A DNA stretch of 64,000 nt from Mucinivorans hirudinis (GTDB lineage Bacteria; Bacteroidota; Bacteroidia; Bacteroidales; Rikenellaceae): contig HG934468.1 of assembly GCA_000723505.1 (NCBI GenBank), positions 776,798 through 840,797 of the forward strand, in the 5' to 3' direction. The notes below the pieces were generated by a model. The model saw nothing but the letters and a program-made list of their open reading frames with translations, did no database searches and was not told the origin of the DNA. This document shows, one piece after another, positions 4,585 through 48,566 of this stretch (position 1 is its first letter; every line of letters begins with the position of its first letter). A program made the position numbers and the translations under genes.

Positions 4585-4648
4585 TTAATAGTTAAGGTTT
4601 TTATGATTATAAAGCGACCGCCTCCCCACATCCCACCCCCTCCCAAAA

Positions 4649-5140
4649 ATGAAAGATATAGAAAAAATAATCACCGACAACCGCTCAGGATTCGACGCCG
4701 ACCACCTCCCCGAGGGTTTTCTCGGCAGGTTCGAGCGGCGACTGACCCGCAAAAAGCGCAGCTTATCCCTCTCGGTATGCTCCGCCGTGGCGGCAGCGGC
4801 AGCAGTAGCACTCGTCTTCTTGCTCAACACCCCCCGCCAAGAGCAGACATCAACCGCCATTGAGACCGAGATTGCCGAGATGAAATTCTACTACGAGAAT
4901 CAACAGCGTATGACAATCGGCATCATCAACCGCCTCTTGGAGTGTACGCCCGACACGGTTCTCGTGGGCGAGATACGCGCTCAGTTGAAAGCAATGCAGC
5001 GAGATGATGAACGCTTTGAGGCAGGAATTAGTTCCAACATAGACAAGGAGACCTATATTGCTCAGGAGGTTGGTTACTATCGTAAGCGACAAGAGAGCTT
5101 GGAATATATACAACAAATACTACAACGATATGAAAACTAA
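4649..5140 (+). CDS. Small membrane-anchored protein, candidate anti-sigma factor
   Basis: The 163-residue protein has an acidic/basic cytoplasmic N-terminus (about 1-50, including LPEGFLGRFERRLTRKKR), one transmembrane segment (about 52-72, rich in Ala and Val) and a periplasmic, largely helical C-terminus that may form a coiled coil. I see no zinc-binding HxxxCxxC. The position right after the ECF sigma gene and the topology suggest it holds the sigma factor at the membrane, but this is inference from context. It overlaps the next gene by 11 nt. Confidence 0.6.
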   Translation: MKDIEKIITDNRSGFDADHLPEGFLGRFERRLTRKKRSLSLSVCSAVAAAAAVALVFLLNTPRQEQTSTAIETEIAEMKFYYENQQRMTIGIINRLLECTPDTVLVGEIRAQLKAMQRDDERFEAGISSNIDKETYIAQEVGYYRKRQESLEYIQQILQRYEN

Positions 5141-8145: not shown

Positions 8146-8151
8146 AAGTCA

Positions 8152-8182
8152 CAAAAGTATACAAAAATTGAAAATTTATCAA
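8152..8182 (-). promoter_or_regulatory. Candidate promoter of the TonB receptor
   Basis: On the minus strand a TTG (8180-8182) is followed by 20 nt and TACTTTTG (8152-8159), matching the Bacteroidota TTTG / TAnnTTTG pattern. The -7 box ends 6 nt before the GTG start, so a transcript from it would have almost no leader. Confidence 0.45.
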
Positions 8183-8219
8183 TAAATTTGTCCCAAAAGA
8201 CCCAAGTGTCCCACAAATT

Positions 8220-11000
8220 ATGCAAAAACTCTTCCTCATAGATGCCTATGCCCTGATTTTCAGGTTTCATTACGCCTTTGTCTCGCGCCCGATGCACTCG
8301 CCGGACGGGCAAAACATATCGGCTGTGTTCGGCTTTGTCAAGTTTCTCAACGAACTAATTGACAGAGAAAAACCTCACCACCTCGGCGTAGCTTTCGACC
8401 CGCGCGGCGGAAATTTCCGCCACCAACTCTACCCATTGTATAAGGCAAACCGAGAGGAGACACCCGAGGATATTCGACGCGCTGTGCCGCTCATCAAAGA
8501 GATTTTGGAGGCTATGAAGATTCCCATTCTCGAGGTGGCGGGATACGAGGCGGACGATGTCATCGGCACGCTCTCCCATAAGGCATCTCAGCGGGGTGAA
8601 TATGAAACATATATGGTTACTCCGGACAAGGACTACGGACAACTTATTCGTCCGAATGTCTTTATGTATAAACCTGCAAAGGAGGGTGTCGAGATTGTCG
8701 GGTGCGACGATTTGTGTGGTGTTTATGGCATTGCTAATCCGAGGCAAATCATTGATATATTGGCGATTTGGGGTGATGCCTCGGACAATATTCCCGGCGT
8801 GCCAGGAATTGGTGAAAAGGGGGCGAGCAAACTGGTGGCACAGTGGGGAACTGTCGAAAATATTTTGCAAAATTTAGATAAACTTACCCCAAAACAGGCA
8901 AAGTCCATAGAGGAAAACAGGGAACAGTTAGAATTAGCTAAACGCCTTGCTACTATTTCATTAGATGTCCCCATTGAGTTCGACCCCGAGAGGTTGGTTA
9001 TGGAGCAACCCAACGTGGAACAACTCAGAGAGATATATGTAAGGCTCAATTTTCAAATGTTTTTGAGGCAACTCAAAAGCATTGATTTTCATAATAACCA
9101 CTCGGTGCAGACCGACCTTTTTGGCAATGTGGTTGAGCAGCCGACCTCCGTGAAGCCATATTCCCAAATCAAGGAGGAGGAGGATATACCTACCGTAAAA
9201 GAAATTGGTTTCGAGGATATTACAACCGTAAAACATAGCTATACGACTGTAACGGCAGAGAACGAAATTGAGGAGTTGGTCAGCTATATGATGCGCCAGC
9301 GGCAGATTTGTTTCGACACGGAGACAACTTCCCTTGACCCCTATGCGGCAAAATTGGTGGGGGTCTCGCTTGCAGTAGAACCACACACGGCATATTGGAT
9401 ACCGGCTAATCATCAATCTATTGAACTGCTAAAACCCCTCTTAGAGAACCCCGAAATCGACAAAATAGGACAGAACCTTAAATTCGATATCGAGATATTA
9501 CGTTGTACTCATAACATTGATGTTCAGGGTATTCTATACGATACAATGATTGAACACTACCTGCTAAAGTCTGAGGAGCGTCATTCGATGGATTTTCTAG
9601 CGCGTAACTACTTAAATTACAACCCAATATCTTATGAAGATTTGGTTGGCAAGGGGGCGAAGCAGATAACTATCGACCGAGTCGATCCTCAGTTGGTTTC
9701 CGAGTATGCTGCCGAGGATGCGGATATTACGCTGCAACTGCACCAAAAACTATGGCAAGAGATTGAAAAAGAAAATCTTACAGAGCTTTATCATAAAATT
9801 GAAGAACCACTTATCAGGTGTTTGGTAACAACCGAGTTGAAAGGTGTAAAGATTGATATTCATACACTTGGCTATTCCGCCAAGGAGCTTAACCGCGAAA
9901 TGCTGAGATTGGAGTCCGAGATACGGGAAATTGCCGAAACTCCATACCTTAACATAAACTCACCCAAACAGTTAGGGGAGATATTGTATGAAAAACTCAA
10001 AGTCATCGACAATCCCAAACTGACTAAGACCAAGCAATATAAGACCGACGAGGAGAGTTTGCAACAGATTGCGGATAAGCACCCGATTGTCGGAAAGATT
10101 TTGGAGTATCGAGGCATAAAAAAGCTGCTCTCCACCTACATCGAGGCATTGCCCAAGCTGATTAATCCGCGCACTGGACGGATACACACATCTTTTAATC
10201 AAGCTGTTACCTCGACAGGTCGTCTAAGTTCCACAAACCCGAATCTGCAAAATATCCCCATTCGCGATGCAGCGGGGCGCGAGATTCGCAAGGCGTTTGT
10301 GGCGGAAAAGGGTAGCGTACTCATCTCTGCCGACTATTCGCAAGTGGAACTCAGAATTATGGCGCACCTAAGCCAAGACCCCGCCCTGATTGAGGCTTTC
10401 AAGAATGGCGAAGACATACACACTACGACAGCGGCAAAGATATACAATGTTGCAGCAGAGGATGTTACCAAGGAGCAGCGCCGTCGGGCAAAGACTGCAA
10501 ACTTCGGCATAATATACGGAATATCGGTTTTTGGGCTTTCTCAGCGACTAAATATTCCACGTGGTGAGGCTAAGGAGTTGATAGACGGTTATTTCTCCCT
10601 CTATCCAGGAGTTCGTCGCTATATGGAGGAGTGCAAAATCGAGGCGCGCGAAAGGGGATTTGTAGAGACAATTTTCGCACGCCGTCGCTACCTGCCTGAG
10701 ATTACCTCTAAAAATGCCGTAATGCGCTCATATGCAGAGCGAAATGCAATAAATGCACCTATTCAGGGTTCGGCAGCCGACATTATGAAGTTGGCAATGA
10801 TAGAGGTTGCGGCGGCGATTGCCCCCCTGAGCGCGACCATCGTTTTACAGGTTCACGACGAATTGGTGGTGGAGTGCCCCGCCGCCCAAGCCGCCCAAGT
10901 GATGGAAATTATGAGAGAAAAGATGATGAATTGTACCAAAATTTTAGTACCTTTGGCAGTGGATGCCGCCGCGGCAGAAGATTGGTTGGCAGCGCACTAA
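8220..11000 (+). CDS. polA: DNA polymerase I
   Basis: The 926-residue protein has all three domains: a 5' nuclease (about 1-290: LFLIDAYALIFRFHYAF, EADDVIGTL, WGDASDNIPGVPGIGEKGA), a 3'-5' exonuclease (about 355-540: FDTETTSLDP, IGQNLKFDIEIL, YAAEDADITL) and a family A polymerase (about 560-926: SADYSQVELRIMAHLS, RRAKTANFGIIYGIS, QVHDELVVE). All three exonuclease motifs are intact, unlike in many polA genes whose proofreading site is dead, so proofreading should be active. It repairs DNA and removes RNA primers in the cytoplasm. Start ATG 8220 gives the expected N-terminus. Confidence 0.97.
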   Translation: MQKLFLIDAYALIFRFHYAFVSRPMHSPDGQNISAVFGFVKFLNELIDREKPHHLGVAFDPRGGNFRHQLYPLYKANREETPEDIRRAVPLIKEILEAMKIPILEVAGYEADDVIGTLSHKASQRGEYETYMVTPDKDYGQLIRPNVFMYKPAKEGVEIVGCDDLCGVYGIANPRQIIDILAIWGDASDNIPGVPGIGEKGASKLVAQWGTVENILQNLDKLTPKQAKSIEENREQLELAKRLATISLDVPIEFDPERLVMEQPNVEQLREIYVRLNFQMFLRQLKSIDFHNNHSVQTDLFGNVVEQPTSVKPYSQIKEEEDIPTVKEIGFEDITTVKHSYTTVTAENEIEELVSYMMRQRQICFDTETTSLDPYAAKLVGVSLAVEPHTAYWIPANHQSIELLKPLLENPEIDKIGQNLKFDIEILRCTHNIDVQGILYDTMIEHYLLKSEERHSMDFLARNYLNYNPISYEDLVGKGAKQITIDRVDPQLVSEYAAEDADITLQLHQKLWQEIEKENLTELYHKIEEPLIRCLVTTELKGVKIDIHTLGYSAKELNREMLRLESEIREIAETPYLNINSPKQLGEILYEKLKVIDNPKLTKTKQYKTDEESLQQIADKHPIVGKILEYRGIKKLLSTYIEALPKLINPRTGRIHTSFNQAVTSTGRLSSTNPNLQNIPIRDAAGREIRKAFVAEKGSVLISADYSQVELRIMAHLSQDPALIEAFKNGEDIHTTTAAKIYNVAAEDVTKEQRRRAKTANFGIIYGISVFGLSQRLNIPRGEAKELIDGYFSLYPGVRRYMEECKIEARERGFVETIFARRRYLPEITSKNAVMRSYAERNAINAPIQGSAADIMKLAMIEVAAAIAPLSATIVLQVHDELVVECPAAQAAQVMEIMREKMMNCTKILVPLAVDAAAAEDWLAAH

Positions 11001-11013
11001 AATAACCTTCGAT

Positions 11014-11796
11014 ATGTACAGCGAATTTCTTGATTTTGCCATAAATTTGGCACGAGAGGTTGGTAAAATCCAACTATCATACTTTAGGAGTGGCAACTTA
11101 GATATTACCACCAAAACAAACGTTTCGGACATTGTAACCCGTGCCGACAAAGAGTGCGAAGAGTATATTGTCAAGGAGATTTTTGCAACTTATGCCGACC
11201 ACAAAATCCTTGGCGAAGAGGGTGGTTTTCGCGGAAATGAAGCGAGTGAATATATGTGGGTGGTAGACCCATTGGACGGCACTACAAATTACAGTCAGGG
11301 ATTACCCATTTTTGCTGTCTCCATCGGATTGGTACACAAGGAACAAACCATCCTCGGGGTGGTGTATGCCCCCTATCTCAAAGAGCTGTTTTATGCGGTA
11401 AAAGGTGGCGGTGCTTATATGCAATGCGGAGATAATGAAGCTCTTGATATAAGAGTTGCCGATAAACGCTCTCTGGATTGTTCGGTCATAGGAACAGGTT
11501 TCCCATATGATAAAGGTGTGAATGCTGACAATAATAGTGATAATGTAGCCCGCATTGTGCCCTATGTACGTGATTTGCGGCGTATGGGTTCGGCGGCTTA
11601 TGACCTTTGTGCTGTTGCAGCAGGAATGTTGGACGGATATTGGGAGATGACCCTCAATCTTTGGGACGTATGCGCCGGGAATCTTATTGTGCAGGAGGCT
11701 GGAGGTGTGATATTTAATTATCGACTTGATAGAAAAATTTCGATAATTGCCGGCAATGGCACGATTATTGAAGAGATTAAACGATATATTCAATAG
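11014..11796 (+). CDS. Inositol monophosphatase family protein (SuhB-like)
   Basis: This 260-residue Mg-dependent phosphatase shows the family metal site: GEEGG (E68/E69), DPLDGTTNY (D85, D88) and WDVCAGNLIVQEAGG near the C-terminus. Family members hydrolyse inositol phosphates, fructose bisphosphate or 3'-phosphoadenosine-5'-phosphate, and the sequence alone does not decide the substrate. ATG 11014 is preferred to an upstream in-frame start that overlaps the polA end. It sits 13 nt after polA and 9 nt before the amylase gene, so a polA operon is possible. Confidence 0.88.
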   Translation: MYSEFLDFAINLAREVGKIQLSYFRSGNLDITTKTNVSDIVTRADKECEEYIVKEIFATYADHKILGEEGGFRGNEASEYMWVVDPLDGTTNYSQGLPIFAVSIGLVHKEQTILGVVYAPYLKELFYAVKGGGAYMQCGDNEALDIRVADKRSLDCSVIGTGFPYDKGVNADNNSDNVARIVPYVRDLRRMGSAAYDLCAVAAGMLDGYWEMTLNLWDVCAGNLIVQEAGGVIFNYRLDRKISIIAGNGTIIEEIKRYIQ

Positions 11797-11805
11797 ACAT
11801 TATAT

Positions 11806-13110
11806 ATGCAATTACTTTATCCCTGTAAGAAAATCCACGGAAAGCAACACCCCGAGTGGGCGTATGATGCGGTACTCTATGAACTCAATATGAGACAGTT
11901 TACTACCGAAGGAACTTTTGTGGCGGCGGCAAAGGAGCTACCAAGGCTCAAAAAACTTGGTGTAGATGTCATTTGGCTTATGCCTATTTTTCCTATTGGC
12001 GAACAGAGGCGTAAAGGGTCGCTCGGAAGTTATTATTCGATAAGAGATTACAGAGCCGTAAACCCCGAGTTCGGGACTATGGACGATTTTCGTGCATTTT
12101 TACAACAGGCTCAAAATGAGGGGGTAAAAGTTATTCTGGACTGGGTGCCCAACCACACGTCGCGCGATGCGGTTTGGACGATTGAACACCCTGATTGGTA
12201 CGAGTTTGACACAGAGAAGAACGAGATTGCAACCCCATTCGACTGGACGGATACCGCAAAGTTGGACTATTCTCAACAAGCGATGAGGGAGGAGATGGTT
12301 GCCGCGATGAAGTTCTGGCTCTCGCAAGGGATTGATGGCTTTCGCTGCGATATGGCGATGCTCCAACCTATCGACTTTTGGGATTGGGCAACGCCTGAAT
12401 TAGAACAAGTTAAACCCGACATATTTATGCTTGCCGAAGCCGAAGGTGTGGAGTTCCACAGGCGCGCTTTCGATGCAACCTATGCGTGGGATATGCACCA
12501 TTTGTTGGTGAAAATAGCTCAGGGGCAGGCAAATGCCGATTCGCTACGCGAGCGGTTGAAGTGGGAGGCGTTCCACTATCCCGAGCAGGCGATACGAATG
12601 CAGTTCACCAGCAACCACGACGAAAATTCGTGGAGCGACACAGAGTTTGTCCGATTCGGGGCGGCAGCTAAGGCAATGGCGGCATTAACCTACATTTTGC
12701 CTGGTATACCTCTGATTTACAACGGACAAGAGGTGGCGCAACCGCGACGGTTGGCTTTCTTCGACAAAGACGCTATCGAGTGGGGCGCGCCGAATGATTT
12801 TAGTGATTTATACGAAAAGCTATCCTCGTTGAAACACGCCCACCCTGCACTCAGAGCAGGCGAACAGGGTGGTGATTTATACTCGATTGACAACTCGGAG
12901 CAGTGGCGAATCTTTGCAGTAAAGCGAAAAATAGGTGAGCAAACGGTTATAGCCCTCTTCAATTTCAGCGGCGCGGATGCGTGGGTGAAATTTTGGGATG
13001 AGGATTTCAACGGAGAGTATAATCAGCTGCTTTCCAATGATAAAGCGCAATTAACATCGGATAGCGACTTTTTGCTTGCTCCTTGGGGGTGGTTTGTTTA
13101 TTGGCGGTAG
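11806..13110 (+). CDS. GH13 alpha-amylase family enzyme
   Basis: The 434-residue protein has no signal peptide, so it probably acts in the cytoplasm on maltodextrins or glycogen. The (beta/alpha)8 barrel carries the four GH13 regions: VILDWVPNHT, GFRCDMAM with nucleophile D182, MLAEAEG with acid E211, and FTSNHDENS with D272. A short C-terminal beta domain follows (about 350-434). The protein is compact, without an N-terminal extension. It sits between the SuhB-like gene and gltX on the same strand. Confidence 0.92.
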   Translation: MQLLYPCKKIHGKQHPEWAYDAVLYELNMRQFTTEGTFVAAAKELPRLKKLGVDVIWLMPIFPIGEQRRKGSLGSYYSIRDYRAVNPEFGTMDDFRAFLQQAQNEGVKVILDWVPNHTSRDAVWTIEHPDWYEFDTEKNEIATPFDWTDTAKLDYSQQAMREEMVAAMKFWLSQGIDGFRCDMAMLQPIDFWDWATPELEQVKPDIFMLAEAEGVEFHRRAFDATYAWDMHHLLVKIAQGQANADSLRERLKWEAFHYPEQAIRMQFTSNHDENSWSDTEFVRFGAAAKAMAALTYILPGIPLIYNGQEVAQPRRLAFFDKDAIEWGAPNDFSDLYEKLSSLKHAHPALRAGEQGGDLYSIDNSEQWRIFAVKRKIGEQTVIALFNFSGADAWVKFWDEDFNGEYNQLLSNDKAQLTSDSDFLLAPWGWFVYWR

Positions 13111-13167
13111 AGGTGGTGACTATAAGTTTTATAATGCCGACTATTAGCGAAAAAAGATTAACGAAAT

Positions 13168-14679
13168 ATGGTAAGAGTAAGATTTGCACCAAGTCCCACG
13201 GGGGCTTTACATATTGGGGGCGTGCGCACTGCCCTCTACAACTACTTTTTTGCACGCCAAAATGGCGGCAAATTTATCCTCCGTATAGAGGATACCGATT
13301 CTGCACGCTTTGTTCCCGGGGCTGAGGCTTATATTATCGAGTCTCTGAAATGGGCTGGTATTGAGATTGATGAGGGGGTTTCGGTGGGTGGACCTCACGC
13401 GCCATATCGCCAGTCGGAACGCCGCGAGATATACCTGAAATATGCGTTGGAGTTGGTCGAAAAGGGGTGGGCATACTACGCTTTCGACACGCCCGAGGAG
13501 CTGGATGCTATCCGTGCAGAAAATGGAGAGACATTTTCGTATAACTATACTGTCCGTGAGAAACTTGCAACATCTCTCAACCTCTCTGCCGAGGAGGTAG
13601 AGGAGCGTTTGGCAAGGGGCGACCAGTGGGTTATCCGATTCAAAATGCCCGAGGGCGAAACCATTGAGATGGATGACCTTGTTCGGGGACATATTTCGGT
13701 AAACAGTTCAACGTTAGACGACAAGGTTCTCTATAAATCTTCAGACAAATTACCTACCTACCACTTGGCGAATATTGTGGATGACCGTCTGATGGAAATC
13801 ACGCACGTAATCCGCGGCGAGGAGTGGTTACCCTCTCTGCCGTTGCACTATATGCTCTATCGCGCTTTCGGTTGGAGCAGTGAGCAGCCTCTGTTTGCCC
13901 ACCTGCCGCTGTTGCTAAAACCTACGGGCAGCGGAAAACTCAGCAAACGGGATGGCGATAAGTTGGGCTTCCCCGTATTCCCTCTACAGTGGCAACCCAC
14001 GGACGGCTCGGAGGGCGCACGCGGCTACCGCGAAGATGGCTATCTGCCTGAGGCCTTTGTGAATATGTTGGCTTTATTGGGATGGAATCCCGGCAACGAC
14101 CATTCAGAAATTATGACAATGGAGGAGATGATTTCGCTATTTTCCATTGACAAAGTGGGCAAATCCGGCTCGCGTTTCGACCCCGAAAAGGCGAAATGGT
14201 TCAACGCCCAATATCTCCACACAACCTCTAATGAGGTCTTAGTAAAAATGTTCCGCCCCGTATTGGAGGAAAAAAACATAAAAGTAACAGACGAAAAGTT
14301 AGAAAAAATCGTTGGCATTGTTAAGGAGAGAGCCACCTTTGTTAGTGACCTATGGGAACTTTCAAAATATTTCTTTGAAGCCCCCCAAAGCTATGACGAA
14401 AAGGTTGTTGCGAAATTTTGGACGGGAGATAATCCCGCACACCTTGTGGAGCTAAAGCGCCGATTGATTATGGTTGAGGATTTCACCGCCGAGAAGCTCG
14501 AAAGCGTTGCCAAAGAGTGGATTCACATCAAGGAGTTGCCTATGGGTAAGATTATGAACACTCTACGACTGGCACTTGTTGGTACAAATGCGGGCGCAAA
14601 CCTCTTCGAGATTGCACAAATAATCGGCAGAGAAGAGTTTAACAGACGTATTGAACGAGCACACAATCTTTTAGGGTAA
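13168..14679 (+). CDS. gltX: Glutamyl-tRNA synthetase
   Basis: GltX charges tRNA-Glu. The 503-residue class I synthetase begins MVRVRFAPSPTGALHIGG, with the HIGH-type motif at residues 15-18. The KMSKS equivalent is GKLSKRDG (around residue 257), and the C-terminal anticodon-binding helical domain is complete. Length is normal. It follows the amylase gene by 57 nt. Confidence 0.96.
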   Translation: MVRVRFAPSPTGALHIGGVRTALYNYFFARQNGGKFILRIEDTDSARFVPGAEAYIIESLKWAGIEIDEGVSVGGPHAPYRQSERREIYLKYALELVEKGWAYYAFDTPEELDAIRAENGETFSYNYTVREKLATSLNLSAEEVEERLARGDQWVIRFKMPEGETIEMDDLVRGHISVNSSTLDDKVLYKSSDKLPTYHLANIVDDRLMEITHVIRGEEWLPSLPLHYMLYRAFGWSSEQPLFAHLPLLLKPTGSGKLSKRDGDKLGFPVFPLQWQPTDGSEGARGYREDGYLPEAFVNMLALLGWNPGNDHSEIMTMEEMISLFSIDKVGKSGSRFDPEKAKWFNAQYLHTTSNEVLVKMFRPVLEEKNIKVTDEKLEKIVGIVKERATFVSDLWELSKYFFEAPQSYDEKVVAKFWTGDNPAHLVELKRRLIMVEDFTAEKLESVAKEWIHIKELPMGKIMNTLRLALVGTNAGANLFEIAQIIGREEFNRRIERAHNLLG

Positions 14680-14765
14680 TTTGCACGCAAAATAAACACT
14701 AAAAACCAACCACTCGTTTGTAACTTTTTGCTCTTTCTCACGTCTAATATATAACAAGGAAAATT

Positions 14766-14782
14766 AGGAGGACAAAATAATG
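14766..14782 (+). promoter_or_regulatory. Strong Shine-Dalgarno before the Trp/Tyr-repeat gene
   Basis: AGGAGG (14766-14771) lies 8 nt before ATG 14780. Bacteroidota genes seldom carry such a complete anti-16S match, and the neighbours here do not, so this gene may be highly translated. Confidence 0.6.
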
Positions 14783-15961
14783 AAAAACGCAATTTTAATA
14801 TTTGTTTTTGCACTGATAGCCACAGCGGCATCGGCGCAAGGTGGTTACTTTGATGACGACCTGTATGGAACTGCAAAAAAAAGGGTTACGCCCACTGTTA
14901 AACAACCCGCCCAACAGAAAAAATATTACTCCACCGTAAGGAGCGGTGAAGACAAAATGGGAGAGTATGTTGATAACTACGAGGATGCTCTTCGCAACCG
15001 AGTTGAGGGGTTTACCTCAGACAGGCAATACCCTAGGGAGTATTGGCAGATGCAGGATAAGTTTGTGGAGATGCTGTCCAAGAAATATGACCGCGCGTTT
15101 TATAACGTAATAGTTATAAACGATAAAGTTTGGGTTGAGCCTAACTATGTCACTACCTTGTTCGATGATGGCGACCCTACGTTGGCTTTGGCTGAGTATG
15201 TGGACGGGGTGAAAAAAGGACTTAATTCAAACAATGTAAGCATCACCGTAAACGTGGTAGACCCTTGGCGCACCTCTTGGGGTATGTCCTATTTTGGGTT
15301 ATCATACGCTTGGGGACGTCCGTGGTATGGCTCTGCGTGGTATTCACCTTGGTATAATCCGTGGTATGACCCGTGGTACTCATCTTGGTATGACCCGTGG
15401 TATAACCCTTGGTATGGCTCTTGGTACTCGTGGCATTCGCCTTGGTACAATTCGTGGCATAATCATTGGTGGGGTGGGGGCTACTATCCGGGTGGCGGAC
15501 ACCATCCCGGTGGGTCGGGAGGAAGCTGGTATCCGGACAAGAACCGCCCATCTCGATACTATGGCAACACGGCTTCTGGCGGACGCCCCAGCGGCAACAA
15601 CCGCAATGGAGACTACCGCACGGGTAGCGGTTTCGGAGGCGGCGGAGTTGCCGAAAACAGACCTAATGTGAAGGTTTACGATAACTCTAACCGCAATGAA
15701 ACGCCTACGCGCAGACCGGGCGCAGGTTCAACCATTTCGGGCAGTCAAGAACGCGGAACATCCACACGTCGTCCGTACATTGAGACAGACAACCGCACCA
15801 CAACAACTCGCAACGAACGACCAACAACCGAACGTAACAACTACACACCACCCGCTCAGAACCGCCAGACGGTAACCACACCACCAGCACAGACACGCTC
15901 CACCTACACCCCACCCGCCGGCAATAGAGACGGTGGCGGCACAGTTACAAGACGCAGGTAG
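14780..15961 (+). CDS. Secreted low-complexity protein with Trp-Tyr tetrapeptide repeats
   Basis: A 393-residue exported protein has a signal peptide (to about residue 20, SASAQ). A folded-looking region follows (about 25-150, with DNYEDALRNRVEGF and KKYDRAFYNVIVINDKVWVE), then a stretch at about 170-235 in which W-Y recurs every four residues (PWYDPWYSSWYDPWYNPWYG), a Gly/His segment, and a Thr/Arg/Pro-rich disordered tail ending TRRR. I recognise no enzyme motif. Similar aromatic-repeat tails occur in Bacteroidales envelope proteins of unknown function. The strong SD suggests abundant product. Confidence 0.7.
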   Translation: MKNAILIFVFALIATAASAQGGYFDDDLYGTAKKRVTPTVKQPAQQKKYYSTVRSGEDKMGEYVDNYEDALRNRVEGFTSDRQYPREYWQMQDKFVEMLSKKYDRAFYNVIVINDKVWVEPNYVTTLFDDGDPTLALAEYVDGVKKGLNSNNVSITVNVVDPWRTSWGMSYFGLSYAWGRPWYGSAWYSPWYNPWYDPWYSSWYDPWYNPWYGSWYSWHSPWYNSWHNHWWGGGYYPGGGHHPGGSGGSWYPDKNRPSRYYGNTASGGRPSGNNRNGDYRTGSGFGGGGVAENRPNVKVYDNSNRNETPTRRPGAGSTISGSQERGTSTRRPYIETDNRTTTTRNERPTTERNNYTPPAQNRQTVTTPPAQTRSTYTPPAGNRDGGGTVTRRR

Positions 15962-15968
15962 CATATAT

Positions 15969-16020
15969 CAGCCTGTGTCATTGTACACAGGAAAGCGCAC
16001 TGTGGAGGTGACGCAGGCTG
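15969..16020. repeat. Inverted repeat after the Trp/Tyr-repeat gene
   Basis: CAGCCTGTGTCA (15969-15980) pairs with TGACGCAGGCTG (16009-16020), 11 of 12 positions, across a 28-nt loop. No T-tract follows. It could be a terminator-like or RNA structural element. Confidence 0.5.
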
Positions 16021-16223
16021 AATACTTTTTAGAAACGACAGAGATAAAACTTATAACCCCACAAAGGGGGCATACTAATATCATTGGTACTGCATATTAA
16101 ATAATTATTATATTTATGCAATCACTCATAATGGAACTTTTTTGCGCTAGATAATGAGTAAACAAATGGCATTTATAATTGAATAACTGAAATATAGAAC
16201 AAAATGCGATTCGCTAAAAAATT

Positions 16224-17828
16224 ATGAAAAAGTTTATACTATCACTATTTGCAGCATCCTTTGTTGGTGTGGCTTGGGCACAGAGCACGGCAGAGTTGCT
16301 TGGTTTCTCGCAGCACAATTTTACATTCGCCACAGCCCGTTCTGCAGCTATGGGTGGAGCTTTCACATCGCTGGGGGCAGATGCTGTGTCAATGAACCTC
16401 AATCCGGCAGGGTTGGCAATGTATCGCCGTAGCGAAATCATAATAACACCCTACCTAAATCTAGGAAACACAAGTAATAGCTATGCGGTTCCACTCTCAT
16501 CGAAACTTCAAAACTCACCCAGCAATAACGAAAAGTACAATAAGTTTGGTTTAGGGAATATAGCAGGCGTCTATGCCAATGGTAATTACACGATTGGGTT
16601 TGGATTTTCGCGAGTAGCCGACTTTTACTCAAATTCGCTTAGCACCGGATTTGACGAAGGATTATCAATAACCGATATGTTTGCCGCACAATTGGCAGGC
16701 ATAGACAAAAAGAATATCGGAGTGCCGCCCGGCGACATTTATCGCGCCTTTTACGACTACCCACCGGTGCTGTGGGGTGCGATTCTGGGATACCAAACAG
16801 GCGGTGTGATTCCGGCAGATGGGAATGCAACACAGTACTATTCGCTCCTCTATGGCGGAGACAAGGTGGCACCGTATCTACTAAGCAAAAAAAGCGGAGC
16901 AATAGATGAGTTTACTCTCAGCGGCGCTTACAACTTTGAGGATAAAATCTACTTTGGCGCCACGATGGGATTCCAAGACATTCGCTATTCGCGTTGGGAC
17001 AACTACCAAGAGTACGGCGAAAAAGGTAATAAGGGTGATTTGGATATGGTAGATTACAATCGCCGATTGGCAACCACGGGTTCGGGCTTCAACTTCAAGG
17101 TGGGTGTGACGGCTCGTCCGGTGAGCTGGATGCGTATCGGTGTTAGCTACCACTCACCCACGTGGATGTCGCTCAGAGAGAGCTACTACGAGGATATGAC
17201 AACATTCAACCGTCTGGATAACGGCAAAAGCTACTATTCGGACACCCCTGAGTTTCTTAATGACTACAACGCCTACACCCCCTCGCGCCTTCTGAGCGGT
17301 GTTTCGATAAGCCTGAGCAATCGTCTCATATTATCGTTTGATTATCACCGTTGTTGGTATGGCAATATGGGATTTTCTAAGAGTTTCAAAGAGTATGCCT
17401 ACCGCCCGACGGTGCTCTCAGACGCGGTGGATAACTATGCCAACATTCAGGCAAATATGGACAAAAGAAACGGAAATATAAATCTGAATGGAATTATAAG
17501 CAATAACTATGAGGCTACCAACACATTCAGTCTTGGGCTTGAGGCACAGGTGCTTCCTGGATTCTTTGCGCGGGCGGGAGCCTTGGTACAGGATTCGCCC
17601 TACAAAAACAAGAATTTGAAAGACTACGGACGCATAGAACAAGGGTCATTCGGCATCGGATGGCGCAACAGCAACTTCAACATAGATATAGCTTGGCTGA
17701 ACTCCACAACCAAACAACTACCATATCAATACTTCAACCTCAATAAAGACAACATCTCGTCAGCGGGATGGAATAGTGCAACCCACACGACAGACCGAAT
17801 AATGATGACCTTCGGACTAAGGTTCTGA
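16224..17828 (+). CDS. OmpP1/FadL-family outer-membrane transport protein
   Basis: The 534-residue barrel has a signal peptide (MKKFILSLFAASFVGVAWAQ) and the FadL-family opening, with RSAAMGGAFTSLGADAVSMNLNPAGLA showing the conserved Asn-Pro-Ala-Gly segment. It ends MMTFGLRF with a terminal Phe. FadL relatives carry hydrophobic molecules across the outer membrane. In Bacteroidota such proteins are usually unassigned and may be ligand channels. It is single-gene, followed by a strong bidirectional hairpin shared with the convergent aldo/keto reductase gene. Confidence 0.85.
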   Translation: MKKFILSLFAASFVGVAWAQSTAELLGFSQHNFTFATARSAAMGGAFTSLGADAVSMNLNPAGLAMYRRSEIIITPYLNLGNTSNSYAVPLSSKLQNSPSNNEKYNKFGLGNIAGVYANGNYTIGFGFSRVADFYSNSLSTGFDEGLSITDMFAAQLAGIDKKNIGVPPGDIYRAFYDYPPVLWGAILGYQTGGVIPADGNATQYYSLLYGGDKVAPYLLSKKSGAIDEFTLSGAYNFEDKIYFGATMGFQDIRYSRWDNYQEYGEKGNKGDLDMVDYNRRLATTGSGFNFKVGVTARPVSWMRIGVSYHSPTWMSLRESYYEDMTTFNRLDNGKSYYSDTPEFLNDYNAYTPSRLLSGVSISLSNRLILSFDYHRCWYGNMGFSKSFKEYAYRPTVLSDAVDNYANIQANMDKRNGNINLNGIISNNYEATNTFSLGLEAQVLPGFFARAGALVQDSPYKNKNLKDYGRIEQGSFGIGWRNSNFNIDIAWLNSTTKQLPYQYFNLNKDNISSAGWNSATHTTDRIMMTFGLRF

Positions 17829-41720: not shown

Positions 41721-41786
41721 ATTTGGATAAACAGAGAGAGAGTCCGCCCCCTTGTTGGGACGGACTCTCTCTCTGTTTATCCAAAT
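41721..41786. terminator. Bidirectional terminator between rpsU and the cobalamin operon
   Basis: Perfect 26-bp arms at 41721-41746 and 41761-41786, with core ACAGAGAGAGAGTCCG, enclose a 14-nt loop. It ends 9 nt before the stop of the minus-strand lipoprotein gene (41796) and 10 nt after the rpsU stop, so it serves both directions. Confidence 0.9.
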
Positions 41787-41795: not shown

Positions 41796-43361
41796 TCACG
41801 TCTCGAATCTCACTGCAACATCATCGTAGGCAAAATATGCCGGCTGGCTGAATCCGTGACCATTATCATTGCTTCCGGTCACCTTAAATTCTATGCGCGA
41901 AACCTTGCCCAAGGAAGATAAATTCCATCTCTTCCAATTTTTCATTACCTGACCGACCACCGAGGTGGTCAGAGTAAATTCCAGACTTTTGTCCGTCATT
42001 TTATTGCCGAGTGCATCGTATCCGGTCGCCACTATTTTTACGAAGTCATTAGGGCCTGCGGCTTGAGTGAAAGAGTTCCCATTAATAAGGCAATTTGCCA
42101 AATAGGTGGTTATCATCACATACATATGGTCCACCACACGTGGCTTTCCATCCTTAAAGTAAAAAGATGGCAAGATTCCGGTATCTGCCTTGGGCACATA
42201 TCCATAATGCACACAAAAGTTTTTTGACCCCTTATTTCCCCCGTATCCGCTCGTTTGGTCTTTGTAGAAAACTGCCAACTGAGATTCGTGATTACCCTTT
42301 TTCAAATCAAGCTCCACATAATTGGACACGGCGTGCCCGCCGCTCCAATATACACCTCCGTTTTCGCTGGCAAGAAAGGTGTTGTTGTCGTCAAACCATT
42401 TATAATCACTGCTTTTATACAGAAGCTGACCCCCAAACTGTGGTTTATCAATGAGCGATGACCAGTAGGAAGAGTTTGACGCTCCTTTGTAGTCTGAATC
42501 CTCAAATGTCAGAATGCGCAAGTCATACTCCGGCTCACTCGAATTCTCTGACGCCATTGCACCTTTGTTACTCCAACTCTTCATTTCGCCACCCATACTT
42601 GCAACAAGTTGTTCACCAGCTATTTCGGTATTAATTGTGTACTGCCCGCCACCTAATAACTTTGCATATGACAATTCCGTGGTGTAGCTCTTTCCTTGAG
42701 TAGTATTGACCACCAAAACCAGAGAGACGGTTTGAGGCACGACAATGGCACGGTACAGTGAATTGGGCGTTACGGCTTGGGCAGTAATGTCTGCCACAGC
42801 CGCCTTCTGATCCACGGTGGCTGTAAGCTTTGTCCAGTCTATGGTTGCTGTCGGTATGGAATTTTTAATGACAACCGAACTTATCTCCGCATCACTTTTC
42901 TTGATATTAACAACTATTTTAGAGAGTAAATGCTTGAATGTCATACTCACAGCGTCATTTGTCGGTTCAATTTCTGCTTTTGTGGCACCCATCAGGTCGG
43001 AGGAATTCCACTCTTTTGTCTGGTCTCGCCCAACAGAGAAGGTCGCCGGCATACCGGATGGCGAGTAGGGGTAGTATGCAGTAAGCAGTGAGGAGGTATT
43101 GGTTTGCTCGTACCAAATGACCTCTCCGGTGAACGCTCCGTCCGCATAGGTCATCAACGCATTGTCGGCGTGTTTGATTTTATCCTCCTTGAGGATTGTC
43201 AATCCAACTCTATCCCCCTTTTCAAAGGAGAGTTCGGTTGCTTTGGCTATTACCGGTGTGATGGTCACACGTTTGGGAGTGGGCTCGGGTTGGTTTTGCT
43301 GACCCTTCTGGCAGCCGGTAAATAGCGATACTAAAGCTATAATTGTTACTATCTTTTTCAT
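41796..43361 (-). CDS. Lipoprotein: fimbrillin-like N-domain plus DUF4465-like C-domain
   Basis: A 521-residue lipoprotein (MKKIVTIIALVSLFTGC, lipobox Cys17). Residues about 30-270 are an Mfa/fimbrillin-like domain (FEKGDRVGLTI, TAYYPYSPSG, SMTFKHLLSKIVVNI). Residues about 280-520 match what I recall as DUF4465 (LTFEDSDYKG, YWSSLIDKPQFGG, VYWSGGHAVSNY). It is the last gene of the riboswitch-led operon. The paralogous N-half in the gene before it shares roughly 60% identity by eye, while the C-halves are unrelated. It probably binds or displays a ligand on the cell surface. Confidence 0.75.
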   Translation of the reverse strand: MKKIVTIIALVSLFTGCQKGQQNQPEPTPKRVTITPVIAKATELSFEKGDRVGLTILKEDKIKHADNALMTYADGAFTGEVIWYEQTNTSSLLTAYYPYSPSGMPATFSVGRDQTKEWNSSDLMGATKAEIEPTNDAVSMTFKHLLSKIVVNIKKSDAEISSVVIKNSIPTATIDWTKLTATVDQKAAVADITAQAVTPNSLYRAIVVPQTVSLVLVVNTTQGKSYTTELSYAKLLGGGQYTINTEIAGEQLVASMGGEMKSWSNKGAMASENSSEPEYDLRILTFEDSDYKGASNSSYWSSLIDKPQFGGQLLYKSSDYKWFDDNNTFLASENGGVYWSGGHAVSNYVELDLKKGNHESQLAVFYKDQTSGYGGNKGSKNFCVHYGYVPKADTGILPSFYFKDGKPRVVDHMYVMITTYLANCLINGNSFTQAAGPNDFVKIVATGYDALGNKMTDKSLEFTLTTSVVGQVMKNWKRWNLSSLGKVSRIEFKVTGSNDNGHGFSQPAYFAYDDVAVRFET

Positions 43362-43412
43362 TACTTTTCTATGATTTGTTATATATTACCTCAAACAGGA
43401 CATCACATACCA

Positions 43413-45185
43413 TCACTTGCGAGTATCTATGCTGACTCCCAGAATATGAAGATCCTCAATACTCATAATCTTGGTAGCGCATTCGCCGAGCCAACCATTC
43501 TCTTGGTTTATACCCGTGTATATTTTAATAAAATCTACCCCCGGCAGATGTACCCTCTCTCCCTTTTTATTCACCGCCCAACTTATGTCTATGGCTGAAT
43601 CGTCTCTTACATTGAGCTCATTGCCGGCGTATCCGTATCGAAATTTGTAGAGGACATAATATCGCCCCACACCACTCTCGTCTACGCCGTTTTGGGGGAG
43701 TCGAGTGCCTTTGAAAGTTAATTTATCGCCCTTAGCCCACAAAGGATAGTAGGGTTGTTTGTGAAATTGATTCTTTACCTTGTGTCCCGACCACCCTTTG
43801 TTATCTTCCCAGGGGATATAAGTGGCCCACTCGTCCTGTGAAGTTGGCTCCTTTTTGGGTTTGTGGTAGGTTATTTCATAGTCGTAAATAATGTCTACGT
43901 CGTTGTTTGCATCATATGCTTTTTGATACCATAGCTCTTTTTTGGGGTCTTCGTGTGCACTACCCGCAATTTCGTACCACTCGCACAGTTCGGGCACACC
44001 TTTTTTGTCGGCATCATATGCAACCATAATAACTCCCGGTTGGCAACTGCCCCCCTCGGGAGCATTGACATCGGGATTGGCATTGGCATAGAAAACATTG
44101 CCCAGCACCCTGAAATCGCGTTTGCCCTCAACGTTGGCAATAGTGTGGTCGAATCCTACGACTACGTACCCGCCAAAGCCTCCCAGATTTATCAGTCCCC
44201 TTTTATTGTTACCTATGGCTGCCAGCACCTTCTGATTCATTATCTCTTGTGTGTCACCCTCTTCGTACAGAGGTAGTTTGTTGGTAAATTGCCCAACAGC
44301 AGGCATATAGTCAAACACCTTTGTAATGTATGCGGTTGCACCCTCGGGAGTGGGGTCTACGACCACCTTCTTTTTGATTTCTCCCTGGTCACTCCAATTC
44401 TCAATCTCACTGCTCATACTCACCACAAGGCGCTCTTTGTCGAGCTGTGCATCGACTTTGTATTGTCCGCCACCCACTATTGTTGCAGACCCAAGCTTTG
44501 TGGCGTAGGTTTTGCCTTGAGTAGTGGTGACCATCACGGTCAGGGAGACTGTTTGCGGTACGACAATGGCACGATAGAGTGAATTATCCGTCACGGTTTG
44601 TGCTATGATGTCCGCCGCTGCAACCTTTGTGTCTACCGTTGCTGTCAGATTTGTCCAATCGACAGTTGCGGTGGGTATAGAATTTTGAATGACGATAGAA
44701 TTTATATCCGCATCGCTCTTATTAACATTAACAACAATCCTAGATAGTAGGCGGTTAAATTCCATATCAACAGCATCATTTGTCGGCGTGACACTCTCCT
44801 TGACGGCAATCATCAAGTCGGACGAGTCATACTCTTTTGTCTGGTCTGTGCTGACAGAGAAGGTTGCCGGCATACCGGTTGTCGAATATGGGTAATATGC
44901 CATAAACTGTGACTTGGTACTTGCTTGCTCATACCAAACAACCTCCGAGGTAAACATACCGTCTCGGTAGGTCATCGGTGCATTATCGGCGTGCTTGGTT
45001 TTATCATCCTTGATGATTGCCAACCCCACTTTATCTCCCTGTTCAAAGGATAGTTCGGTTGCCTTGCTAATCACGGGTTTGATAGTCACGCTTTGTGGAG
45101 TGACGACTTCGGGTGGATTCTGCGAACCCTTCTGGCAGCAGACAAATAACGCCGCCAGGGTCAGAACCGTTAAGAATTTTTTCAT
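43413..45185 (-). CDS. Lipoprotein: fimbrillin-like N-domain plus distinct C-terminal surface module
   Basis: A 590-residue lipoprotein (MKKFLTVLTLAALFVCC). The N-terminal ~265 residues are the same fimbrillin-like domain as in the next gene. The C-terminal module (about 285-590: FDYMPAVGQFTNKLP, LGGFGGYVVVGFDHTI, DFRVLGNVFYANANPD, WYEIAGSAH) is a type I often associate with Bacteroidales BtuB/BtuG neighbourhoods. It lies 80 nt after btuG and 52 nt before the DUF4465-like gene. A cobalamin-binding or retention role is inferred from the operon. Confidence 0.75.
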   Translation of the reverse strand: MKKFLTVLTLAALFVCCQKGSQNPPEVVTPQSVTIKPVISKATELSFEQGDKVGLAIIKDDKTKHADNAPMTYRDGMFTSEVVWYEQASTKSQFMAYYPYSTTGMPATFSVSTDQTKEYDSSDLMIAVKESVTPTNDAVDMEFNRLLSRIVVNVNKSDADINSIVIQNSIPTATVDWTNLTATVDTKVAAADIIAQTVTDNSLYRAIVVPQTVSLTVMVTTTQGKTYATKLGSATIVGGGQYKVDAQLDKERLVVSMSSEIENWSDQGEIKKKVVVDPTPEGATAYITKVFDYMPAVGQFTNKLPLYEEGDTQEIMNQKVLAAIGNNKRGLINLGGFGGYVVVGFDHTIANVEGKRDFRVLGNVFYANANPDVNAPEGGSCQPGVIMVAYDADKKGVPELCEWYEIAGSAHEDPKKELWYQKAYDANNDVDIIYDYEITYHKPKKEPTSQDEWATYIPWEDNKGWSGHKVKNQFHKQPYYPLWAKGDKLTFKGTRLPQNGVDESGVGRYYVLYKFRYGYAGNELNVRDDSAIDISWAVNKKGERVHLPGVDFIKIYTGINQENGWLGECATKIMSIEDLHILGVSIDTRK

Positions 45186-45264: not shown

Positions 45265-46473
45265 TCATTCTTTTAGTTTTTTACCGGCATCTTTCAATTT
45301 TTTGTGTGAGAAGACAATATGTGCCGGTATATCTCCCGTGGTAACCGACCATTTCTTTGTGCCGTCTTCTCCAAAGCAATAGAGCGTACCGGGCGAGACA
45401 TAATCCTTAGCATCGGTGACAAAGAACTCTCGTGTCTGGGAATTGACTGCTATACCGTATGGGATTGTTATCTTTTCGTGCGTGCCGTCCTTTATGAAGT
45501 TGCGGGTGACAATCTTTTTCGTGCGGGTATCTACAATGGCATAGGTGACACTGCTTTCGCCCTTGTTGTAGTTCCATTCGGTGCTGTATACATACAGAGA
45601 GTCGCCACATAGTGCCATATTACTGTTGGGTAGGTCTTCCAGACAGTCGGTGACCACATCCGTACGTGTGTCGATGATGTAGGTCTTGGATGACGTTTTG
45701 TAGTAGTCCCCGCGCGAGGAGACATAGATATTGCCATAATTGTCCGGCTCTATTCGGTGGAGATTGATAGCCACATCTATCTTCTTTATTTCGGTGAAGC
45801 TCTCCAAATCAATCACCGACACAGTCCTGTCGTAATTGGGAACGCGGTAGCCTCCCGAATTGGCAACATAGAGGCGATTTTCCACAACCGCCATCTCCTC
45901 GGGTTGGTAGCCTACGGTACACTCACCAACTACCTTCAGAGTAGCTGTATCGATTTTTGCAACATACCCTATTCTGGCATTTTTGTTGATTTGCACAGCA
46001 CCGGCATATGCACTCACATATGCATATCTACCACTGAAAACGACATATCGACAGTTGGGGATAGCAATTTTCGTGATATGTTCAGCCGTAGCTACATCCA
46101 TCACTTCTAGATAGTTGGAGCAGTTGATTACCGCATACAGTTTGTCGCCGTAGATTTGAATATCGTTGCCCACATCGCCCAAATCCTTTATCTCCTTCGG
46201 GTTGCGCTCACCGTATATGTTACGATGATAGATTCCCGTGGTATAGTCATAGTAGTCCAAAGAAGCCTTATTGCTACCCATATTCCCTTCGTTGAGCAGG
46301 TAGAATCCGTATATCTGCCCTGTGGTGCTCTGCTTTGGCGCCACCTCCACCTCTGTGGAGGTGGTGCTCTGCTTTGGCGCCACCCTCACAGCTGTGGACG
46401 GCAGCACAGGATCGCCCTTGCGGCAAGCAGCAAGCGTTGCCACGCAAAGAAGTGTTAATAAAAAATTTTTCAT
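45265..46473 (-). CDS. btuG: BtuG-like beta-propeller surface lipoprotein
   Basis: A 402-residue lipoprotein (MKNFLLTLLCVATLAAC) with YncE/7-bladed-propeller repeats (YGFYLLNEGNMGSNKASLDY, VGYQPEEMAVVENRLYVANS, NLHRIEPDNYGNIYVSSRGD). It is the BtuG type, which caps BtuB and hands over vitamin B12 in gut Bacteroidales. It starts 1 nt into the btuB stop (TGATG), so the two are translationally coupled. An 11-residue VAPKQSTT motif is repeated (VRVAPKQSTTSTEVEVAPKQSTT) just after the signal peptide. BtuG identity rests on fold and operon, not on measured binding. Confidence 0.82.
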   Translation of the reverse strand: MKNFLLTLLCVATLAACRKGDPVLPSTAVRVAPKQSTTSTEVEVAPKQSTTGQIYGFYLLNEGNMGSNKASLDYYDYTTGIYHRNIYGERNPKEIKDLGDVGNDIQIYGDKLYAVINCSNYLEVMDVATAEHITKIAIPNCRYVVFSGRYAYVSAYAGAVQINKNARIGYVAKIDTATLKVVGECTVGYQPEEMAVVENRLYVANSGGYRVPNYDRTVSVIDLESFTEIKKIDVAINLHRIEPDNYGNIYVSSRGDYYKTSSKTYIIDTRTDVVTDCLEDLPNSNMALCGDSLYVYSTEWNYNKGESSVTYAIVDTRTKKIVTRNFIKDGTHEKITIPYGIAVNSQTREFFVTDAKDYVSPGTLYCFGEDGTKKWSVTTGDIPAHIVFSHKKLKDAGKKLKE

Positions 46474-48566
46474 CACATCATAATTGTTACATTGATTTTG
46501 AAATTAGTACCAGGCATCGGATACCACTTGACGACCTCATACTGTTGGTTGAAAATATTATTTAGCTCTCCCGTAACCCTCATTCTCTGCTTGGCGAGTT
46601 TAAAGTTTTTGGTCAATGACATATCGTGCGTATACCAGGGCTGAATGTAGTTTTCCGGAATATTACCGCCCAACATATACCGCTCACCCGTGTAGATGAA
46701 GCTGTAATTGAGGTCCCATCCACGAAAAGAGAGCCCCAAAACGACAGAGCCGCTATGACGGGGAACGTAAGGAATCTGATGCCCGTAGACGTTGATTGTG
46801 TGGTCGGAGTCGTCGCTGGGCGGGTTGTTCTTTTCGGGGGTGAGATCTAGTGCCTGCTGAAAGGTGTAGCTGATTCTACCATCGACACAGAGCTCGCCAA
46901 AGCTAAAGCAAGGGGTTATGCTCACATCCGCACCTTTAATATCGACAAATCCCAAGTTCAACATCGTCCACACCAACTGATTCGATGTTGGTGTGGCTAT
47001 AATCTTGTCCATCACCTGATTTCGGTATGCGTCCACCTGAACCCCGATACTGCTCAATGGAGCTCCATCGAAAGATTTGTTGTAGACAAAGCCCAGATTA
47101 TATTGTGTGGTGTATTCGGGTTTAAGCAGGCGGTTTCCGATTTGTACGTAGTAGAGGTCGTTGAAGGTGGGCATACGAAATATCTTTTTGAAGAAAGCTC
47201 GCACATCAAAATTCACATCTTGGAACGGTTGCCACCAGGCAAGTATAGTGGGAGTGGCAATGCTTTTGTCGGGCGCAACCGCCATTGTACGTGCGCTGAC
47301 ATCTTTGGTGTAGGTATAAAGAAGGCTACCCGAAATGGTGAACCTATCAATATGCACGGAGGTGGCAGCAGCCACAAGCGCAGTATAGCGACGCGGGCGC
47401 ACGAAGTTGGCATTAAACATATCCGTACCCGTGGCATCCAGACGATTGTATTGCAGGTCGGTGGCGAGATTGGCACTCCATACGGGGGTGATACAAAAGA
47501 GGTTTGTTGCGGTCAGGTAAAACTCCTGCTGATAGTAGTGGTTATCCATTGGCTCGAGCGTTGTCTGGGGCGGCATAACGTAGTTCATATAGTCGTTCGC
47601 ATATTTAGCCTGTATTTTCAGGCTATACAGCGGTGTGAAGTTCTTACGAAAGAGGGACTGGACGAAGAAGTTTCTATCTGTCTGCCTATCCTCATTGAGC
47701 AGTGAGATGCCATAATCTTTCTTGACGGCAGCCCCGGGGTATCCTCTCTGTGAGCCATATAGGTAAGCTTTAGCCATCCACTCCCCGCCATCGACTTTTG
47801 AAAACAGAGCAAGTTCTGCTCTGAGCGAACGGAGGTCTCCGTTACGACGAATCTCGGTGGTGTCGTATCCGTCATCCTTTTTATATCGGAACTTATAGCG
47901 CCCCGAAGTATACAGCAATTCGGCGTTTGCCGAAAACAACAGCCTCCCGGACAGTTTCCTCTCCCACAGCGCTGATGCGTTGGCTAGGTCGAACGAGCCT
48001 GCCTTTAGTTTGATTGTCAGATTATCTGTGCGACCACCCTCGAATAACGGGCGGCGGGTGACCATATAGAGAGAACTTGAACTCGCATAATCTTTTGCCG
48101 ATTGAAAGAGTTCGCTCTTCTGACCGTTATAGAGTGCAATAGCCTCCATATTATCGAGCGAAAATTTGCCAAGGTCTACCGTTCCGTTCTGTGCATTGGT
48201 GATTTGTATGCCGTCGAAGAAAACGCCTACGTGATGGCTTCCCATACTGCGTACATTGATAGTCTTCAACCCTCCGATACCGCCGTAGTCCTTGATTTGC
48301 ACTCCCGAAAAGTAACGTAGAGCGTCGGCAACAGATACGACATTGAGCCGTCGCAACTGCTCGCCGGCGAGTAACTGTGCCGGCACTACCTCCTGACGTT
48401 TGCCATAGACCACCACTTTGCCTATCGATAATACCTTCGTGGTATCACCCATAGGACTCCTAGTCAATATCGTTCGGGCTTCGACTGAGGGGGCAAAAGC
48501 CCATATTGCCACCCAAAAGAGCAAACCTCCCCCTACCCGTAAACGCCTCTGTTCACAGAAAAACAT
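46473..48566 (-). CDS. btuB: BtuB-like TonB-dependent cobalamin receptor
   Basis: A 697-residue outer-membrane receptor. The plug (about 50-165) has VADALRYFSGVQIKDYGGIGGLKTINVRSMGSHHVGVFFDGI, and the barrel ends NIFNQQYEVVKWYPMPGTNFKINVTIMM. The N-terminus is signal-like (LLFWVAIWAFAPSVEA). The cobalamin riboswitch upstream and the downstream btuG-like gene identify vitamin B12 or analogues as the likely cargo. It is distinct from the orphan TonB receptor at 6211. Confidence 0.88.
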   Translation of the reverse strand: MFFCEQRRLRVGGGLLFWVAIWAFAPSVEARTILTRSPMGDTTKVLSIGKVVVYGKRQEVVPAQLLAGEQLRRLNVVSVADALRYFSGVQIKDYGGIGGLKTINVRSMGSHHVGVFFDGIQITNAQNGTVDLGKFSLDNMEAIALYNGQKSELFQSAKDYASSSSLYMVTRRPLFEGGRTDNLTIKLKAGSFDLANASALWERKLSGRLLFSANAELLYTSGRYKFRYKKDDGYDTTEIRRNGDLRSLRAELALFSKVDGGEWMAKAYLYGSQRGYPGAAVKKDYGISLLNEDRQTDRNFFVQSLFRKNFTPLYSLKIQAKYANDYMNYVMPPQTTLEPMDNHYYQQEFYLTATNLFCITPVWSANLATDLQYNRLDATGTDMFNANFVRPRRYTALVAAATSVHIDRFTISGSLLYTYTKDVSARTMAVAPDKSIATPTILAWWQPFQDVNFDVRAFFKKIFRMPTFNDLYYVQIGNRLLKPEYTTQYNLGFVYNKSFDGAPLSSIGVQVDAYRNQVMDKIIATPTSNQLVWTMLNLGFVDIKGADVSITPCFSFGELCVDGRISYTFQQALDLTPEKNNPPSDDSDHTINVYGHQIPYVPRHSGSVVLGLSFRGWDLNYSFIYTGERYMLGGNIPENYIQPWYTHDMSLTKNFKLAKQRMRVTGELNNIFNQQYEVVKWYPMPGTNFKINVTIMM

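Follow-up and report, generated by a model that had tools for sequence, protein, structure and literature searches.

In this study we examined two adjacent lipoprotein genes of Mucinivorans hirudinis, here called H and J, that lie at the end of a vitamin B12 uptake operon within a stretch of 64,000 nucleotides (contig HG934468.1, positions 776,798 to 840,797; hereafter the window). Our analysis indicates that the two products are probably accessory B12 scavengers of the BtuH and BtuJ types, belonging to a riboswitch-controlled BtuBG operon and carried on copies of a single captured fimbrillin-like stem. The BtuH and BtuJ heads and the BtuBG operon were already known; the placing of such a stem on a B12-binding head is a new domain architecture. 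Gene H (43413-45185, minus strand) encodes a lipoprotein of 590 residues, with an Mfa_like_1 stem (residues 1-268; 44382-45185) and a BtuH head (residues 279-590; 43416-44351). Gene J (41796-43361, minus strand) encodes a lipoprotein of 521 residues, with an Mfa_like_1 stem (residues 1-267; 42561-43361) and a DUF4465, or BtuJ, head (residues 278-521; 41799-42530). The operon, the heads and their pocket residues, the family and sisterhood of the stems, and the finding that no other genome examined has this fusion are read from sequence comparisons.

A B12 operon had been proposed for this region in a first-pass annotation of the window, and the context supports that assignment. The order on the minus strand is riboswitch, btuB, btuG, H and J, with H and J forming the end of the operon. 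The cobalamin riboswitch of the leader (RF00174; 48724-48932, minus strand) scores 103.3 bits against a gathering threshold of 31.5 and is the sole Rfam match in the whole window. The btuB gene (46473-48566, minus strand) encodes a TonB-dependent B12 transporter resembling BtuB1 of locus 1 of Bacteroides thetaiotaomicron, its closest solved chain being 8blw_A (E 6e-134). The product of btuG (45265-46476, minus strand) is a BtuG1-like beta-propeller lipoprotein (DUF5074) that matches 8blw_B (BtuG1) and two YncE-family chains, 8ptd_A and 8ptf_A, all at E of about 1e-38. The H and J reading frames are intact at the coordinates first assigned to them, and both begin with a lipoprotein leader.

The N-terminal halves of H and J are related, with 175 of 278 residues identical (63%, residues 1-278; blastp E 9e-122) and 73.6% identity of the DNA over 694 nucleotides. 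Identity per block of 20 residues is 55-80% up to residue 240, falls to 40% at 241-260 and to 22% at 261-280, and beyond this point the C-terminal halves yield no alignment except chance pieces. Both N-terminal halves score above the Pfam cut-off for Mfa_like_1 (E 3e-35 for H, 1.2e-32 for J), and the lipoprotein cysteine, presumably Cys17, does not vary in an alignment of 21 stems that has 18 invariant columns in all. In H the stem runs through NWSDQGEIKKK into VVDPTPEGATAYITKVFDYMP, which resembles the linker IDPPAEGANPYITKVFDYMP of its relatives; in J, SWSNKGAMASEN is followed by EYDLRILTFEDSDYKG, where relatives have SYELRYLTFEDEDYRG. The end of the stem is nearly the same in both proteins, directly past a W-x-x-x-G motif, and since both stems stop at about the same place the junctions fit a fusion at domain ends. 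The earlier description of two adjacent lipoproteins sharing a half of some 265 residues at roughly 60% identity was thus accurate, as was the statement that their C-terminal halves differ, these being unrelated domains. Tandem duplication with module swapping, which the same annotation had suggested, gains support from the tree of 21 stems, in which H and J are sisters (support 100/99), together with the finding that the nearest relatives of both heads sit on other N-terminal halves.

The C-terminal half of H reaches no Pfam family above cut-off and is recognised through solved structures of the BtuH domain, 8blw_B (BtuG1; E 7e-59) and 7biz (BtuH2; E 8.5e-27). Seven of the eight B12-contact residues of BtuH2, as taken from the relevant part of PMC8941943, are identical in H, the exception being Trp511, which is replaced by Tyr510. 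On this evidence we infer that H binds B12. In a maximum-likelihood tree of 79 BtuH heads, that of H groups with those of loci L038 (Bacteroidales bacterium UBA5287), L064 and L065 (support 100/93), to which it is 73-74% identical; the BtuB and BtuG of the window are 65-67% and 69-71% identical, respectively, to those of L038, L064, L065 and L126. H shares with BtuH1, BtuH2 and BtuGH of B. thetaiotaomicron a B12-binding C-terminal domain and its place as a lipoprotein of a riboswitch-led btuB/btuG locus. The difference lies in the N-terminal half: the BtuH heads described in the sections available of PMC8941943 and PMC12751083, including the BtuGH fusion, are joined to PKD repeats or to a BtuG propeller, or have no extra domain, whereas that of H sits on a fimbrillin-like stem. 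Among seven relatives of H that were scanned with Pfam, PKD-type domains score above the cut-off in L064, L066, L041 and L083 and below it in L038, L081 and L082, and 5 of 78 BtuH-head proteins are fused to BtuG.

The C-terminal half of J is a DUF4465 domain (E 4.7e-35; 122 bits against a Pfam cut-off of 25), and a model of J matches the folds of BtuJ2 (9i2l, E 1.7e-13) and BtuJ1 (9fct, E 4.9e-11). Both tyrosines that the excerpted text of PMC13398666 singles out for B12 in the DUF4465 family, Tyr146 and Tyr245 of BtuJ1, are kept in J as Tyr420 and Tyr509, and their columns are invariant among 26 heads. At the HI-loop, which reads GTPAYF or NTPAY in BtuJ, J has SQPAYF, so that PAYF is kept and the first two residues are changed. 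J is accordingly predicted from its sequence to bind B12 as well, having in common with the BtuJ1/BtuJ2 family the domain, both tyrosines and the fold. For both proteins, then, the view that the C-terminal halves are cobalamin modules held up on sequence, and the BtuH match with its contact residues, the DUF4465 hit and the BtuJ fold match rule out that they are modules of an unfamiliar kind. When 56 BtuJ heads are placed in a tree, that of J adjoins a group of six rows (L038, L065, L126, L108, L109 and L156; seven rows with J, support 98/89), and is 53-55% identical to the heads of L038, L065 and L126 and 29% identical to that of L064. The operons of L038, L064, L065 and L126 begin with a cobalamin riboswitch followed by J, BtuB, BtuG and H, the H gene of L126 being cut by the contig end. 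Relatives of J in these four operons thus lie upstream of btuB, unlike the J of the window, which is the last gene and has a fimbrillin-like stem where most of the J relatives compared have DUF4988. In an alignment of 24 proteins (A3: J, H, seven stem relatives and 15 J relatives), Pfam places DUF4988 in 14, all of them relatives of J (14/15), and finds none in J, H or the seven stem relatives; the J relatives of L038, L064 and L065, scanned alongside the relatives of H, all have it. L064 and L065 share the same layout and have H proteins that are 95% identical, and the J proteins in the same slot are 33% identical, a difference which suggests that the J gene may be replaced independently.

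The same architecture was sought elsewhere by searching with H and J in 268 genomes from its family (H matched in 242, J in 217) and 393 genomes of the order (72 and 11, respectively, at 1e-20), and with J in 395 genomes of the phylum at 1e-15, where the single match was the genome of M. hirudinis itself. These counts include that genome, and the family and order samples overlap; up to five candidates per genome were scored in the family searches and up to three in the order and phylum searches. Among the matches listed, none outside the genome itself aligned over both halves, and a scan of genome contigs gave six loci, all matched through the BtuH head. Neighbourhoods were then considered for the best hits and six named loci, a non-random set in which many members are close relatives of one another, using hidden Markov models (HMMs) of the stem and heads built from these sequences. 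The stem was found on none of 78 BtuH heads and none of 55 BtuJ heads, and neither head on any of 20 stem proteins. Nor is a shared N-terminal half a general theme of such pairs: it was seen in 0 of 37 same-locus H/J pairs in which both heads start past residue 100, the best match being E 0.009 over 16 residues. Borderline matches that reached into the other half were checked as candidates for a second fusion (two BtuH heads, then four BtuH heads, three BtuJ heads and three stems) and none proved to be one; the rows so checked include L108-L111, L114, L130, L139, L143-L145, L150, L151 and L164, as well as L179, L180 and L181-L187. A few rows whose reading frames could not accommodate a complete stem were left out of this check (for example G577:C2, 337 residues; G068, G077, G049 and G108, 420-433 residues), and because the stem HMM sees distant fimbrillins weakly, it could overlook a fimbrillin of high divergence joined to a different head. 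The domain pairing, for which the first-pass annotation proposed a search in other cobalamin loci, was therefore not found among the relatives examined. The observation that it named as refuting its idea, C-modules lying mainly outside such loci, is not borne out: a BtuB gene lies in the same stretch for 63 of 78 BtuH-head and 41 of 55 BtuJ-head proteins, which ties the heads to cobalamin loci. It is the fimbrillin-like half that elsewhere occurs outside them, neither BtuB nor BtuG being present in the stretch retrieved for any of its 20 best relatives.

An architecture confined to one genome, among the matches listed, might in principle be an artefact of assembly or gene calling. We consider this scarcely credible, given that the genome is a single contig of 3.149 Mb, 99.96% complete with 0.95% contamination, and that both reading frames are intact, have lipoprotein leaders and are joined at domain ends. 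A fimbrillin-like stem on either head was not found named in the CC-licensed literature, which falls short of proving its absence in print; the words fimbrillin and Mfa are absent from the main texts of PMC13398666, PMC12751083 and PMC8941943, and Mfa from that of PMC10404256.

The relatives of the stem point to a quite different setting. A Fib_succ_major head is present in 19 of the 20 proteins most similar to it and is missing from L056, which has only 336 residues. Genes for DUF4876 and DUF6850 proteins, families that Pfam assigns in L045 and L052, lie beside ten of the 20, and a TonB receptor is found in the stretch for nine of these ten; in the tenth, L047, the contig starts before the position of the receptor. 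Cobalamin riboswitches are absent from the 16 of 20 stem loci that were scanned with Rfam (8 and 8, all but L060-L063). In the unrooted stem tree, which leaves out L053, H and J fall together with exactly the ten DUF4876-DUF6850-linked stems on a side of 12 rows (support 97/96), with the nine others apart. The Mfa_like_1-Fib_succ_major lipoproteins of these operons are thus the closest kin of the stem and are likewise lipoproteins; they differ in their Fib_succ_major head, with no B12 domain, where H and J carry BtuH and DUF4465 heads. The set of TonB receptor, DUF4876, DUF6850 and Mfa_like_1-Fib_succ_major lipoprotein recurs in L044-L047, L051, L052, L054, L055, L061 and L062, in many cases close to ABC and PepSY genes. 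A comparable cluster of B. thetaiotaomicron, BT3625-BT3633, is annotated as a TonB receptor, DUF4876 proteins, the 'fimbrillin family protein' BT3630, PepSY proteins and an ABC transporter, and in the data excerpted from PMC10434189 is upregulated 37- to 128-fold on iron depletion; BT3630 is likened to the stem family by annotation and gene order, not by sequence. In Porphyromonas gingivalis one DUF4876 gene stands in a table of hemin-dependent expression changes of PMC10470040. The recurring set appears to be a second lipoprotein-assisted uptake system, probably one related to iron.

We propose that the stem goes back to a TonB receptor-DUF4876-DUF6850 operon, either to its Mfa_like_1-Fib_succ_major lipoprotein directly or to an ancestor common to both, and that it would have been captured once and then duplicated in tandem, its copies taking the place of the PKD-like and DUF4988 N-terminal halves of related operons. 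H and J would be lipid-anchored on the cell surface, with the stem keeping each head away from the membrane; the heads would capture corrinoids or cobamides tightly and pass them to BtuG and BtuB, and J perhaps hands its corrinoid to H. The last step follows a proposal made in the part of PMC12751083 that deals with BtuJ, which describes very tight cobamide binding by this protein and proposes that BtuJ passes the cofactor to BtuH and BtuH passes it to BtuBG, given that BtuJ and BtuH bind it from opposite sides. On the sequence evidence, capture of cobamides at the surface for delivery to BtuG/BtuB by heads that the stem holds off the membrane is the most likely working of the pair; here the surface location, the relay, the role of the stem as a spacer, and the direction and order of the exchange are what we infer.

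Several findings weigh against this account. The stem tree is unrooted, so H and J form one lineage of the TonB receptor-linked side and nesting inside that side is not seen. The nearest stems are 42-49% identical, among the matches listed, and for this reason no donor is identified. A donor within the genome itself was also considered and rejected: the genome has no DUF6850 and no other close stem, and the search with H gave three matches there, two of them among the matches listed. The model of J is of moderate quality (predicted template modelling score, pTM, 0.52). The head of J is less close to its relatives than that of H (53-55% against 73-74%), and J lies at the opposite end of the operon from its relatives, which makes a separate history for J possible; by sequence, the history of J appears less clear than that of H. 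Finally, three congeners with incomplete genomes (65-84%) bear on the age of the fusion: among the matches listed, none of the three has a match to J, and one, G214, has a BtuH-head reading frame of 309 residues, hence without a stem.

A competing explanation is that the stem is a neutral spacer, that the likeness of the two copies reflects descent or gene conversion, and that any surface lipoprotein stem would serve. No more than 100 residues precede the head in 14 of 78 BtuH-head and 7 of 55 BtuJ-head proteins, some of them cut by contig ends, and this, with the varied BtuH N-terminal halves described above, argues that a long stem is dispensable in general. Set against this is the 63% identity still retained between the two stems, along with the 18 columns invariant among 21. 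Moreover, seven relatives of J can be aligned over their full length, with identities of 28-95%, which indicates that stem and head travel together there and that stems can be long kept, although the relatives of H vary more. We regard the neutral spacer as a credible reading, if a less probable one than capture of a stem for a pair of B12 scavengers. That the stem acts as a platform around BtuB/BtuG, as first envisaged, is plausible, and it may fix the place or the partner of the heads. A bolder version, in which TonB-dependent uptake systems of Bacteroidales use the stem as a transferable module for docking or sorting, here moved from an iron-type to a B12 system, and in which it would co-locate both scavengers beside the transporter, in vesicles or by stem-stem strand exchange, so that passage from BtuJ to BtuH to BtuG takes place in one assembly, seems to us unlikely.

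The fold of the stem raises the question of whether H and J might instead belong to a type V pilus, at its tip or as accessory subunits, with B12 heads displayed on a filament assembled by protease-triggered strand exchange. An AlphaFold2 model of the N-terminal half of H, built from 21 stems (predicted local distance difference test score 84.5, pTM 0.77), best matches 4k4k (Z 20.4, root-mean-square deviation 2.8, 224 residues) and 3ufi (Z 19.6), both of the Bacteroidales 'cell adhesion' or fimbrial group, and also matches the Mfa3 tip protein (Z 13.2) and the FimA prepilin (Z 11.9); Foldseek concurs, and a profile search with the stem finds 3ufi at 5e-20. These matches indicate that the stem has a type V pilin fold, in common with the FimA/Mfa pilins of Bacteroidales, and together with its Pfam family they speak for a pilus role. 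However, a column past the first strand that we take as the putative processing site is occupied by Arg in 17 of the 21 aligned stems, by Lys in H and J and by Gly in the remaining two; in the model of the H stem the first strand spans residues 32-39, with lower confidence at 41-50. Normal polymerisation of Mfa1 in P. gingivalis needs Arg-gingipains and does not involve Lys-gingipain, according to the text excerpted from PMC5954841. Arg at this position does not by itself mark a pilus subunit, given its presence in 8 of the 10 transporter-linked stems, and the exchange to Lys is therefore weak evidence against a pilus role. The setting of the genes also tells against it: a Pfam scan of seven other genes at 39.9-52.5 kb found no fimbrillin and no pilus anchor or shaft gene, and the nearest stems sit in transporter operons. 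A pilus partner elsewhere remains conceivable through a fimbrillin-like array at 2.20 Mb of the same genome that is weakly similar to the stem. This array (L178, G000:C1:2196500-2216000, at 4201-16644) comprises nine tandem lipoprotein-like reading frames of 301-327 residues, whose leaders are nearly identical in eight and whose bodies are divergent, and which score weakly against the stem HMM (7e-11 at best, 0.006 at worst). On balance we rejected the identification of H and J as pilus tips, a role that we consider very improbable, in favour of B12 scavengers of the BtuBG operon.

Within that interpretation, H and J constitute a natural domain-swap experiment, both accessory heads of one operon having been placed on one foreign stem. 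No answer to what the N-terminal halves of BtuH and BtuJ do was found in the parts of the B12 literature consulted, and if the stem sets the place or partner of a scavenger, then the H/J pair offers a direct test of that role. The findings also link 'fimbrillin' annotations to nutrient uptake, and caution against labelling Mfa_like_1 lipoproteins as pilins by name alone when they adjoin TonB receptors.

The operon appears to close with a hairpin directly past the stop codon of J (41721-41786, minus strand), a probable terminator with 30 consecutive pairs; the 101-base stretch tested has a predicted folding energy of -59.8 kcal/mol (z -13.0), and 0 of its 200 shuffles were equally stable. It occurs once in the genome, only at this position, and is probably a bidirectional terminator facing convergent genes on the plus strand. 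The genome has six cobalamin riboswitches in total, and two more BtuG-like genes lie near others of these (L174, 1707-3473; L176, 11235-12392). In the BtuG of the window (45265-46476), the N-terminal linker that follows the lipoprotein cysteine contains a repeated stretch, VRVAPKQSTTS..., VEVAPKQSTTG....

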